From: an endosymbiont of Bathymodiolus septemdierum str. Myojin knoll
GTDB taxonomy: Bacteria > Pseudomonadota > Gammaproteobacteria > PS1 > Pseudothioglobaceae
Assembly: GCF_001547755.1 (NCBI RefSeq)
Contig: NZ_AP013042.1
Span: 682,001-746,000 of the forward strand
Length of the DNA stretch: 64,000 bases
Direction of reading: 5' to 3'
Part shown: positions 519-12,550 of the stretch, piece after piece
Layout of the letters: each line of letters opens with the position of its first letter
Numbering within the stretch: the first letter of the stretch is position 1
Translations under genes and position numbers: made by a program
Notes under the pieces: model-generated
What the model was told of the DNA's origin: nothing
Databases searched by the model: none
What the model saw: the letters and a program-made list of their open reading frames with translations, nothing else

Positions 519-1226
519 ATGAAAACAAAGGACATTGACTTAAAAGACAGGCTGATTTTTGCATTGGATGTTCCAGAAGTGGCGCAAGCAAAAGATTTGG
601 TAATACAATTAGATGACAGCGTGAGTTTTTACAAAATCGGCATGGAGATGCTGATGACAGGTCAATTCTTCCCATTAATGGACTGGTTGATTGCACAGGA
701 TAAGAAGGTTTTTGTGGACTTAAAGTTTTTTGATGTGCCTGAGACCGTTGGTAGAACGATTAATCGTTTGAGTCAGTACGGTGCAACTTTTGCTACTATT
801 CACGGCAATCAGGCATTAATGGAAAAAGCTGCTGAAAACAAAGGCAACCTTAAAATATTAGCAGTGACCGCATTAACCAGTCTTGATAGGGGGGATTTGG
901 ATGATTTAGGTTTTAAATGCAATGTGCAAGATTTGGTAATTTCTCGTGCTAAGCGCGCCTTTGAGGCAGGTTGCGATGGCGTGGTTTCATCGGGTTTAGA
1001 GGTGCCATTCTTGCGCGAATTTGTAGACAATAAATTGATTGCAGTCACGCCAGGTATTCGCCCTGTTAATAATACAGTAGAAGACGATCAAAAGCGGGTA
1101 ATAGATGTGGCTACCGCTTTTAAATCGGGGTCAGATTATATCGTAGTAGGGCGCCCAATTAAAAATGCAGCGGATCCTTATCAAGCAGCAAGCAATATTC
1201 AAGATATTATTAAAACTTGCTTTTAA
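519..1226 (+). CDS. pyrF: Orotidine 5'-phosphate decarboxylase
   Basis: PyrF carries out the last step of de novo UMP synthesis, decarboxylating OMP in the cytoplasm. The catalytic array is visible as DLKFFD (residues 67-72, with Lys69 the proton donor), and the phosphate-binding GRPI motif follows near the C terminus. The 235-residue length matches the family. A longer reading frame opens at 450, but ATG 519 is chosen because it has an AAGGA ribosome site just upstream and because the 450 start would overlap the Sel1 gene and add residues unlike PyrF. Confidence 0.95.
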   Translation: MKTKDIDLKDRLIFALDVPEVAQAKDLVIQLDDSVSFYKIGMEMLMTGQFFPLMDWLIAQDKKVFVDLKFFDVPETVGRTINRLSQYGATFATIHGNQALMEKAAENKGNLKILAVTALTSLDRGDLDDLGFKCNVQDLVISRAKRAFEAGCDGVVSSGLEVPFLREFVDNKLIAVTPGIRPVNNTVEDDQKRVIDVATAFKSGSDYIVVGRPIKNAADPYQAASNIQDIIKTCF

Positions 1227-1250
1227 AACCCTTTATAATAACCGTCTTTT

Positions 1251-1327
1251 AGTCGCGTAGCTCAGTTGGTTAGAGCACTACCTTGACATGGTAGGGGTCG
1301 GTGATTCGAATTCACTCGCGACTACCA
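1251..1327 (+). tRNA. tRNA-Val (anticodon GAC)
   Basis: The acceptor stem AGTCGCG/CGCGACT is perfect, the anticodon stem CTACC/GGTAG holds the loop TTGACAT, and the T-loop is TTCGAAT. CCA is encoded. A TATAAT box at 1234-1239, overlapping the space after pyrF, is a plausible -10. The last 35 nt of this gene are the seed of the tandem array that follows immediately. Confidence 0.95.
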
Positions 1328-1715
1328 ATTTCCAAGCCTATTTATTAGTATATGTAGGTTTGCTCATGTCCCTGACGGATATAGTGATGAGGGGTCGGTG
1401 ATTCGAATTCACTCGCGACTACCAATTTCCAAGCCTATTTATTAGTATATGTAGGTTTGCTCATGTCCCTGACGGATATAGTGATGAGGGGTCGGTGATT
1501 CGAATTCACTCGCGACTACCAATTTCCAAGCCTATTTATTAGTATATGTAGGTTTGCTCATGTCCCTGACGGATATAGTGATGAGGGGTCGGTGATTCGA
1601 ATTCACTCGCGACTACCAATTTCCAAGCCTATTTATTAGTATATGTAGGTTTGCTCATGTCCCTGACGGATATAGTGATGAGGGGTCGGTGATTCGAATT
1701 CACTCGCGACTATCA
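1328..1715 (+). repeat. Four 97-bp tandem repeats containing the tRNA-Val 3' end
   Basis: Four near-identical 97-bp units follow tRNA-Val without a gap (1328-1424, 1425-1521, 1522-1618, 1619-1715). Each unit has about 62 bp of new sequence and then the last 35 nt of the tRNA, including variable region, T-arm, 3' acceptor strand and CCA. In the last copy CCA has become TCA. The new segment can form a short hairpin (AAGCCTA with TAGGTTT). The layout resembles the E. coli tyrT locus, where repeats carrying the tRNA 3' end follow the tRNA and give rtT RNA. There is no convincing ORF in it. Confidence 0.97.
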
Positions 1716-1724
1716 TTTTTTAAA

Positions 1725-1755
1725 CAAAAAAAATCTGTGAAAGCAGGTTTTTTTG
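1725..1755 (+). terminator. Rho-independent terminator of the tRNA-Val/repeat transcript
   Basis: A hairpin with AAAAATCTG paired to CAGGTTTTT across the loop TGAAAG, followed by a T run, lies just after the last repeat. This suggests that tRNA-Val and all the repeats are transcribed as one unit. Confidence 0.75.
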
Positions 1756-1806
1756 TTGCCTTTTCAAAGGGTCTCAAGGTTTTTATATGGTATTGTTAAC
1801 TTATGT

Positions 1807-9920: not shown

Positions 9921-10307
9921 ATGTCGACCCAACCTTGTAAAGTTTTAGAAGTTTTTGACAATCCAAATCCTGAGCGTGATTATGTCATTCAAATTGATAT
10001 GCCAGAATTTACCTGTCTTTGCCCAAAAACAGGGCAGCCTGATTTTGCGACACTGCACTTAGAATATATTGCGGATAAGGCGTGCGTTGAACTTAAATCT
10101 TTGAAGATGTACATTTGGTCGTTTCGTGATGAAGGTGCATTTCATGAGGCGGTAACCAATCAAATCTTAGCAGATTTAGTAGCAGCCACTAACCCACGCT
10201 TTATGCGCCTTAAAGCGATTTTCAATGTGCGTGGCGGTGTTTATACTACGGTCATTGCTGAACATCAGCAAGCAGGTTGGGTACCCAAGCCTATTGTCAG
10301 CCTGTAA
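9921..10307 (+). CDS. queF: NADPH-dependent 7-cyano-7-deazaguanine reductase (unimodular)
   Basis: QueF reduces preQ0 to preQ1 in queuosine biosynthesis. The 128-residue length is that of the short, YkvM-type form. The catalytic Cys34 lies in CPKTGQPDF, followed by the family NADPH-binding motif ELKSLKMY (57-64) and the FHE substrate-binding residues (74-76). An AAAGGAA ribosome site precedes the ATG. pcnB starts just after the stop. Confidence 0.95.
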
Positions 10308-10329
10308 TTTGAAAAACTTCTTCAAACGC

Positions 10330-11499
10330 ATGTTCACAAAAGGCGAAAAACCTGCCACCGGAGAACCTGTCCGTCAATTTATTGAGTTTGATAAAAATCT
10401 GATAGATAAAAATGCCATTAAAGTTGTTAGTATTATTCACAAAGCTGGTTATGAAGTCTATCTAGTTGGCGGCTGCGTTAGGGACTTATTGCTCGATTTG
10501 AAGCCAAAAGACTTTGATATTGCCACCAATGCAAAACCCGAGCAAGTTAATAAACTATTTAAGCGTTCTCGTCTTATTGGTAGACGCTTTCGTTTGGTGC
10601 ATGTATTATTCAGTGCCCGTGATTTTCTTGAAGTGGCAACCTTTCGTTCTGGTAAAGTGCAAACTGCTAAGAATGGTGTAATTGTGCGTGATAATCATTA
10701 TGGCAGAATAGAGGACGATGTGATGCGTCGGGATTTTAACATTAATGCTTTATATTACGATCTTCAGAAAAAAGAAGTGATTGACTATGTCGGCGGTTTA
10801 AAAGATATTGCAGCTGGTGAAATTCATATGATTGGCAATGCCAAAAAACGCTTTGCAGAAGATCCAGTGAGAATGATTCGTGCCATTCGTTTTGCTGAAA
10901 AACTGGGCTCAGAAATGAGCGAAGAAATTAAAACAGCCATCTTTAAACAAGCGCATTTATTGGGCAATATTTCTTCGGCTCGTTTGTATGAAGAGTGTAT
11001 TAAATTGTTCCAAAATGAATATTCATTTGCGGTGTATGAGCAGTTAGAAGAATATGGTTTACTTAAATATTTGTTTAAGCAAACGCATAAAAATGATTTT
11101 ATTAAGAAAGCCTGTAATAATACTTCTGAGCGTATTAAATTGGGCAAGCCAGTGACACCTGCTTTCTTGTTCGCGGTGTTTTTATGGCAGGCACAAAATG
11201 AACGCTTTGCTTTGATTAAAAGAAAGCAACGCTCTTTCCATTTAGCGCAGTTGCAAGCTTGTGATGAAGCAATCGTCAATCAAATTAAACAAGTATCAAT
11301 GCCAAGATACCTTACTTCTAAAATCAAAGATGTATGGATGATGCAATCTAAATTAGAGAAAATACAGCCTAAAAAAGTACAGTCTTTATTGGACAATCGT
11401 AGCTTTAGAATGGCGTATGATTTTTTGCTTTTGCGTTCGCAGAGTATCAACCCTGAATTGAAAAAAGCAGTTGATTTTTGGACCAAAGCGCAAGAATGA
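10330..11499 (+). CDS. pcnB: Poly(A) polymerase I
   Basis: PcnB adds 3' oligo(A) tails that mark RNAs for decay. The class II nucleotidyltransferase head is clear: VGGCVRDLLL at residues 46-55 and the metal-binding DFD at 61-63. RRDFNINAL and the RNA-binding EDPVRMIRAIRFA follow. ATG 10330 gives 389 residues. The open frame reaches back into queF, but that extension is in the wrong frame for a shared product; a TTG at 10309 directly after the queF stop is the main alternative start. The stop overlaps the next ATG in ATGA. Confidence 0.9.
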   Translation: MFTKGEKPATGEPVRQFIEFDKNLIDKNAIKVVSIIHKAGYEVYLVGGCVRDLLLDLKPKDFDIATNAKPEQVNKLFKRSRLIGRRFRLVHVLFSARDFLEVATFRSGKVQTAKNGVIVRDNHYGRIEDDVMRRDFNINALYYDLQKKEVIDYVGGLKDIAAGEIHMIGNAKKRFAEDPVRMIRAIRFAEKLGSEMSEEIKTAIFKQAHLLGNISSARLYEECIKLFQNEYSFAVYEQLEEYGLLKYLFKQTHKNDFIKKACNNTSERIKLGKPVTPAFLFAVFLWQAQNERFALIKRKQRSFHLAQLQACDEAIVNQIKQVSMPRYLTSKIKDVWMMQSKLEKIQPKKVQSLLDNRSFRMAYDFLLLRSQSINPELKKAVDFWTKAQE

Positions 11500-12329
11500 A
11501 ATCGGTTTTAATCACAGGCTGCTCGAGTGGTATCGGTTTATGTGTTGCACAAGGGTTAAGGCAGGTAGGTTATCAAGTATTTGCCACCGCTAGGAAAGCA
11601 CAAGATGTGGTAACACTTAAAGACCAAGGTTTCGATGCTTATCAACTTGATTTAAGCTCATCAGAGTCTATTAAGTCTGCTATTGAGGCTATTTTTAAGC
11701 AAACAAACACGCTTTATGGTTTAATTCACAATGGTGCATACGGACAAGTGGGGGCGCTAGAAGATATTTCTCGTCAGGCGCTTGAAGCGCAATTTCAAAC
11801 CAATGTGTTTGGCTGGCACGAATTGACCAATTTGGTTTTGCCAAAAATGAAGCAGAGGAACGAAGGTCGTATTGTTTATTTGAGCTCAATATTGGGCTTT
11901 GTGGCAATGCCATTTCGTGGTTCTTATAATGCGTCAAAATTTGCAATTGAAGGTTTGGTAAATACGCTTAGATTAGAGTTGTCGCATACCAATATACAAT
12001 TATCACTCATTCAGCCTGGACCGATTGAATCTGACTTTAGAATCAACGCCTATAAAGCATTCAGTAAAAATGTAGATATGGAAAATAGTGATTATCACAT
12101 GAATTATAAGAAGATGATTGTACGATTGCGTTCAAAAGAATTAGCAGACTTTACATTACCTACGGAAGCAGTGCTAAAATGTTGCCTACATGCACTCAGT
12201 GCAAAAAATCCAAAAATTCATTATCGAGTAACTTTTCCAACGAAATTATTTGCATTTTTGATTAGAATATTACCAACAAGATGGATGGATAAAATACTTA
12301 ATAAAGCCGGTGGCGGTGGAGAAAGATAA
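11496..12329 (+). CDS. Short-chain dehydrogenase/reductase, substrate unknown
   Basis: This 277-residue classical SDR uses NAD(P)H. The cofactor motif TGCSSGIG is at residues 7-14, the NNAG-equivalent HNGAYG near 78-83, and the catalytic Ser131, Tyr144 and Lys148 (YNASK) are all present. ATG 11496 overlaps the pcnB stop codon and gives the glycine-rich motif its normal position; a frame open from 11478 would add residues unlike the family. The xseB start overlaps its stop by one base. The substrate cannot be told from sequence. Confidence 0.8.
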   Translation: MKSVLITGCSSGIGLCVAQGLRQVGYQVFATARKAQDVVTLKDQGFDAYQLDLSSSESIKSAIEAIFKQTNTLYGLIHNGAYGQVGALEDISRQALEAQFQTNVFGWHELTNLVLPKMKQRNEGRIVYLSSILGFVAMPFRGSYNASKFAIEGLVNTLRLELSHTNIQLSLIQPGPIESDFRINAYKAFSKNVDMENSDYHMNYKKMIVRLRSKELADFTLPTEAVLKCCLHALSAKNPKIHYRVTFPTKLFAFLIRILPTRWMDKILNKAGGGGER

Positions 12330-12550
12330 TGACAAAAAAATTTGATTTTAATAAAGGTTTGGAAAAATTAGAAAGCATTGTACAAACCATGGAAGAAGGT
12401 GATTTGAGTTTAGAGGATTCATTAAAATACTTTGAGGACGGCGTTAAACTAACGCGTCAATGTCAAACTGCGCTCAGCGAAGCAGAGCAAAAAATTGCTG
12501 TTTTAAGTGCCGATGATGGTTATCAATCTGAGAAACCTTTAGGCGAATAA
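12329..12550 (+). CDS. xseB: Exodeoxyribonuclease VII small subunit
   Basis: XseB is the small helical subunit that joins XseA to degrade single-stranded DNA. The 73-residue protein carries the family hallmark LEKLESIVQTMEEGDLSLED and then SLKYFEDGVKLTRQCQ. It overlaps its neighbours on both sides by one base (TAATG), as in the common xseB-ispA operon. No xseA is seen nearby. Confidence 0.95.
   Translation: MTKKFDFNKGLEKLESIVQTMEEGDLSLEDSLKYFEDGVKLTRQCQTALSEAEQKIAVLSADDGYQSEKPLGE

Follow-up and report, generated by a model that had tools for sequence, protein, structure and literature searches.

Here, we observe that the tRNA-Val(GAC) gene of a symbiont genome (G000) is directly followed by an array of tRNA-linked repeats (TLRs). 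The 388 bp immediately 3' of the gene consist of four 97-bp units (1328-1715), each ending in a copy of the 3' part of the tRNA, and by its anatomy this is a TLR array. New here are, in addition, TLR-like copies at two further tRNAs of the same genome, tRNA-Asp and tRNA-Phe, and in related species, where they occur in arrays or in decayed form. Unless a genome is named, coordinates refer to the window, i.e., the whole stretch of 64,000 nt that was analysed, which represents positions 682001-746000 of the complete 1.47-Mb genome. The nearest named relatives of this genome are SUP05/Thioglobus-type gammaproteobacteria, including Bathymodiolus gill symbionts.

In E. coli, 22 TLRs are located at ten loci, the tyrT/rtT repeats included, and each shares 18-19 identical bp with the 3' end of the tRNA or rRNA before it (PMC8144298). 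They are traced to Egan and Landy 1978 and Rudd 1999, as cited in PMC8144298, and their function has been unsettled since the first description in 1978 (PMC8144298). Three TLRs between dual rrn terminators, rrA/rrB/rrF, yield sRNAs that bind Hfq and CsrA in vitro, and the repeated tail was proposed as an RNase E processing signal by the authors of the same study (PMC8144298). The rtT repeat has been catalogued as a 175-bp VNTR (PMC2658671). The TLR papers found concern E. coli and its order; a literature search that covered few subscription journals returned no description of TLRs outside the Enterobacteriales.

The parent gene, tRNA-Val(GAC) with an encoded CCA, occupies 1251-1327 on the plus strand (ARAGORN; Rfam RF00005, 66 bits). 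Sequence comparison identifies its last 35 nt (1293-1327, plus strand) as the tail that is repeated in each unit. Unit 1 (1328-1424) begins at the base after the CCA of the tRNA, in the same orientation, and comprises a 62-bp spacer with two hairpins and the 35-nt tail with CCA. Units 2 (1425-1521) and 3 (1522-1618) are identical to unit 1 in spacer and tail, and unit 4 (1619-1715; all units on the plus strand) differs only at its end, where a single change in the CCA gives TCA. The 30-mer GGGTCGGTGATTCGAATTCACTCGCGACTA is found in five copies with an exact 97-bp spacing (at 1295, 1392, 1489, 1586, and 1683), at a chance expectation of 0, and no copies were found elsewhere in the 1.47-Mb genome. 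The gene call by ARAGORN and the exact period of the tails agree with a sequence-only reading of this DNA, which had described four 97-bp repeats behind tRNA-Val, each ending in the tRNA 3' end. Its count of five 35-nt tails also holds, but not the CCA in all of them: the last tail ends in TATCA, so that CCA is encoded in four out of five 3' ends.

A promoter-like site (1210-1239, plus strand) is located 5' of tRNA-Val, with a TATAAT box at 1234-1239 and TTAAAA 18 nt upstream of the box; it is a consensus match only, of a type that is not more frequent than in shuffled sequences. The array is followed by a probable intrinsic terminator (A-tract, hairpin, U-tract; 1719-1757, plus strand), whose strong fold (-11.5 kcal/mol, z = -4.7) ends near 1757 and was not flagged by a simple consensus terminator scan. 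With a promoter-like box before the tRNA and a strong U-tailed hairpin behind the array, tRNA-Val and its units likely form a single transcript of ~510 nt. A protein-coding repeat, like tpr in rtT, was considered and rejected: no ORF of at least 60 aa overlaps the units, and a period of 97 bp is not divisible by three. Adjoining the array, a gene at 1905-2402 contains a 27-bp repeat (NNWGPF-type) and encodes a small protein that begins like a signal peptide. Similar genes also come after tRNA-Val at the loci L007, L011, and L023.

A second array is present in a sister species. In the complete genome of G056, tRNA-Val is followed by four full units of 98-99 bp and a truncated spacer remnant; the four units represent two types, arranged as A B B A. 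Related strains had been named in the sequence-only reading as the place to look for the 62-bp segment, and here it is found with 70-77% spacer identity. The same reading had considered that its observation could fall to an assembly artefact, a single real unit multiplied during assembly. The exact identity of the units in the window would fit this idea, but the complete G056 genome carries its own array of diverged, non-identical units, and we regard an artefact as extremely improbable.

Among the genomes searched, the Val array was found in G000 and G056 only. The tail pattern, sought in 83 family genomes, gives one copy per matching genome and five copies in each of these two. Matches of the RNA model in 35 other genomes are weak and correspond to the 3' part of tRNA-Val wherever the location was compared. 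Synteny of pyrF and tRNA-Val is found in many relatives, and those inspected have a single tRNA with its own trailer. The array is thus dispensable for the relatives that lack it. In a pyrF tree, G000 and G056 are sisters (support 97/98), so that one gain of the array suffices.

Spacer identity between the two genomes (70-77%) compares with 45% (39/86) at the four-fold sites of pyrF (Fisher P = 1e-4 and 2e-3; shuffled-alignment baseline 52%). At the variable loop, tRNA-Val and its units both read GGGTC in the window, and both read AAGTC in G056. Bases that are shared within a genome and differ between genomes point to sequence exchange between the tRNA and its units. Moreover, tRNA-Val of G056 (L093) has GGAGGAAGTC in the anticodon stem and variable loop, versus GGTAGGGGTC in the other relatives seen. 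The AAGTC part of this variant is also present in the G056 units, as if the tRNA and its units had exchanged sequence.

The strongest rival explanation is an array without a role that is maintained by recombination. A partial tandem duplication of the tRNA 3' part, arisen by chance, would have produced a neutral passenger, whose RNA is degraded as a trailer and has no role, and which expands and contracts by unequal crossing-over while gene conversion with the essential tRNA keeps its copies alike. We consider this well possible, albeit on the doubtful side. It is in good agreement with the presence of the array in two sister species only and with the identity of the units within the window genome, and concerted evolution accounts for the tails. 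Against it speak the spacers, which lie outside the tRNA-derived tail and are more conserved than four-fold sites, with their hairpins kept.

Each Val unit is predicted to fold into hairpin 1 (CAAGCCUA..UAGGUUUG), hairpin 2 (UCC-CUGAC-GGA), and an extended T-arm. The hairpins are kept in 94% of the cells versus 31-44% when slid, and two two-sided changes are seen; this test comprises three distinct full unit sequences only, the same from which the structure was derived. The covariation score is matched or passed by column shuffles in 58 out of 500 cases. RNAalifold on the cores alone (A2) retains hairpin 2 only, because hairpin 1 is not aligned in register. No strong terminator was found between the units. 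A mobile or viral origin of the spacer was also considered and dropped, as there was no exact match to viral contigs, phage matches were weak or tRNA-like, and plasmids gave none. On the minus strand, positions 1289-1446 give a sub-threshold match to the Rfam antisense RNA HPnc0260 (43.7 bits, gathering 59; E = 0.001), which we rejected as probably the tRNA T-arm read from the opposite strand.

In equilibrium folding, the 5' acceptor strand of tRNA-Val prefers the last copy, with a mean pair probability of about 0.9 in a model that ignores co-transcriptional folding, tertiary structure, and processing. Pairing of the acceptor strand with the extra copies, as envisaged in the sequence-only reading, is thus allowed by the model, which is, however, no evidence of its occurrence in the cell. 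Such pairing could make the array a decoy or switch: the extra acceptor strands would compete for the single 5' acceptor strand, or titrate T-arm enzymes, and thereby limit or time the maturation of tRNA-Val. The tails, being perfect copies of T-arm and acceptor, would suit this purpose. But tRNA-Val is made, and able to fold, before the units, tertiary contacts are outside the model, and the Asp and Phe copies are located behind terminators, which leaves this explanation very improbable.

These Asp and Phe copies emerged from a scan in which each of 177 tRNA genes from five genomes was compared with the 400 bp behind it. Three tRNAs alone were conspicuous: Val-GAC (G000, G056), Asp-GTC (G000, G056), and Phe-GAA (G000, G059). 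The complete genomes G052 and G061 show no TLR-like copies behind their tRNAs. In G000, tRNA-Asp(GTC) is accompanied by a 5'-truncated copy 143 bp on (G000:C1:482990-483209, outside the window; loci L129, L180), and G056 has a matching copy at +121. The Asp copy, which begins within the D-loop, retains the two strands of the anticodon stem, with the loop enlarged from 7 to 15 nt (CCTGC-TATTGCCTTTATTAC-GCAGG in G000). Behind tRNA-Phe(GAA), G000 has one extra 22-nt tail copy at +97 (G000:C1:57952-58124, also outside the window; loci L127, L187). In G059, tRNA-Phe is followed by tandem 93-bp units (G059:C8:1-274), at least two of them extra, as the contig ends inside the array. The G059 copy begins at the anticodon arm, and its T-arm is enlarged by about 9-11 nt.

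Asp and Phe copies alike lack the 5' part of the tRNA, and a single loop is enlarged by about 8-11 nt; in G000, each of the two single copies is placed between two terminator hairpins. Likeness to the tRNA 5' of the insertion is beyond chance for Asp in G000 and Phe in G059 (0 out of 1000 shuffles); compared with shuffles, it is not significant for Phe in G000 (P = 0.30) and for Val (P = 0.5-0.9). The idea that the Val spacer stems from the anticodon arm of the tRNA (CCCTGAC vs CCTTGAC) was therefore dropped, and for Val only the 35-nt tail is demonstrably tRNA-derived. Decayed copies are found for Asp in G053 and for Phe in G054 and G080, the latter of another genus. Decay is what would be expected of a neutral passenger, whereas the conservation of the expanded Asp and Phe loops between species argues against it.

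Fragments of tRNAs often originate from integration (PMC9897764), and the copies might be scars of integrative elements which used tRNA 3' ends as attachment sites and left displaced 3' ends behind when they were lost. A P4-type tyrosine integrase gene lies directly 3' of tRNA-Val in a relative (L012:4045-5289), and tRNA-Val is thus used as an integration site in the family. G080 provides a further case (L300; G080:C68:38000-57900, about 10300-12422), where an integrase-like remnant accompanies tRNA-Phe and an unbroken tRNA copy lies displaced by about 2 kb. An old Phe unit is located 80 nt beyond this displaced copy, i.e., an integration scar and a TLR-like unit occur at one tRNA. The scar of G080 is unbroken, however, whereas the Asp and Phe units are interrupted by the expanded loop. 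The Val tail, which begins 3' of the anticodon loop, is uninformative on unbroken identity across the crossover loop. Copies 97 bp apart leave no room for element genes between them, and the constant period and the two alternating spacer types in G056 do not fit scars either. Neither an integrase nor an element was found between or beside the Val copies, where the spacers have 62 bp and the next gene is that of the repeat-rich small protein. We hold an origin by integration to be quite unlikely.

The explanation we prefer, with moderate confidence, is that of an array of the TLR kind, which is co-transcribed with its tRNA, cut by RNase E, and kept matched by recombination, and whose RNAs probably have a minor or conditional role. 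Its anatomy, its conservation in the sister species, the kept hairpins, the sharing of sequence between tRNA and units within each genome, and the lack of ORFs of at least 60 aa are direct observations; co-transcription, RNase E cutting, the duplication route, and any role are what we infer. Transcription would start at the promoter of tRNA-Val, traverse all four units, and stop at the terminator near 1757. The RNase E encoded in G000 would cut the A/U-rich stretch just 3' of each T-arm/acceptor tail, as proposed for the E. coli TLRs. This would free tRNA-Val and up to four ~97-nt RNAs, each with two hairpins and an extended T-arm hairpin. Release of T-arm-bearing small RNAs, already supposed in the sequence-only reading, is our best guess. 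The units may have been born by local duplication of the tRNA 3' part; unequal exchange would raise their number, and recombination with the parent tRNA would keep them matched to it. Any role of the RNAs would be tied to tRNA-Val transcription.

Counting against this proposal are the small number of distinct unit sequences, the last tail without CCA, the distribution over two genomes, and the proteins Hfq and CsrA, which were not found. CsrA gave no hit over the cut-off in 12 genomes of the genus, and Hfq was not found in three genomes, so that the sole mechanism proposed for TLRs does not carry over to the symbiont. A CsrA sponge was rejected as well: UGACGGAU in spacer hairpin 2 is close to a CsrA site, but the genus gave no CsrA over the cut-off.

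The TLR plan is found behind three tRNAs of a lineage that is distant from E. coli and gave neither Hfq nor CsrA in these searches, which shows the plan to be independent of those proteins. The species of this lineage can be compared for parent tRNA and expanded loop as well as for gain, decay, and homogenisation, and this makes the origin and function of TLRs testable by comparative genomics and symbiont RNA-seq.

A more far-reaching interpretation takes TLRs as a general, repeatedly arising class of sRNA genes linked to stable RNAs, formed by 5'-truncated tRNA arms with an expanded loop, matched to their parent and doing a job that requires neither Hfq nor CsrA. We consider this unlikely. 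If the general class existed, its job might be, e.g., to act on the enzymes or the folding path of the parent tRNA, and the symbiont lineage would be the simplest system for finding it.

The sequence-only reading had named tyrT with its rtT repeats as the only parallel. The parallel is right in kind but not the only one, given the 22 TLRs at ten loci cited above. In a scan of 48 E. coli tRNAs by the method used for the symbiont genomes, we recovered TLR units behind Tyr, Lys, and Arg genes. All identity blocks there have 18-19 nt and start in the T-loop, and the tyrT unit shows the 5' side of the T-arm followed by a ~70-nt insertion, with modest support (P = 0.002-0.024). The claim that the 62-bp spacer is unrelated to tyrT is borne out: the model R1 of the Val unit has no match in the tyrT locus (L094), and Rfam families give no RtT match to the array at E <= 10. 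An rtT/RttR identity of the Val unit is rejected on the same grounds, the 178-bp tyrT-type unit sequence being absent. Common descent with the E. coli TLRs finds no support in these comparisons, and the resemblance is likely convergent.

Compared with known systems, the Val units share with attR-type displaced tRNA 3' fragments (PMC9897764) the truncated 3' copy downstream of an intact gene. They differ by their constant short period and by having no element between them, and the Asp and Phe copies differ by their expanded loops. The 3'ETS-leuZ RNA of E. coli is, in the account given of it in PMC8144298, likewise a regulatory RNA that RNase E releases from a tRNA trailer, but it has no repeated tRNA end and forms no array. 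By the same account, it acts on RyhB and RybB by base pairing, and these two are not known in the symbiont. Like rrA/rrB/rrF, the Val unit has as its last part the 3' end of the stable RNA that precedes it, and the Asp and Phe copies of G000 are placed between two terminator hairpins. The Val array, however, has no strong terminator between its units, and the proteins bound by rrA/rrB/rrF in vitro, CsrA and Hfq, were not found in the genomes of the symbiont lineage searched. The E. coli TLRs in general, including tyrT/rtT (rttR), occur in another bacterial order. They have unrelated spacer sequences, tails of 18-19 nt in contrast to 35 nt, and, in tyrT, a unit of 178 bp instead of 97 bp and an ORF such as tpr. 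Both they and the Val array combine a spacer that is not tRNA with a copy number that varies.
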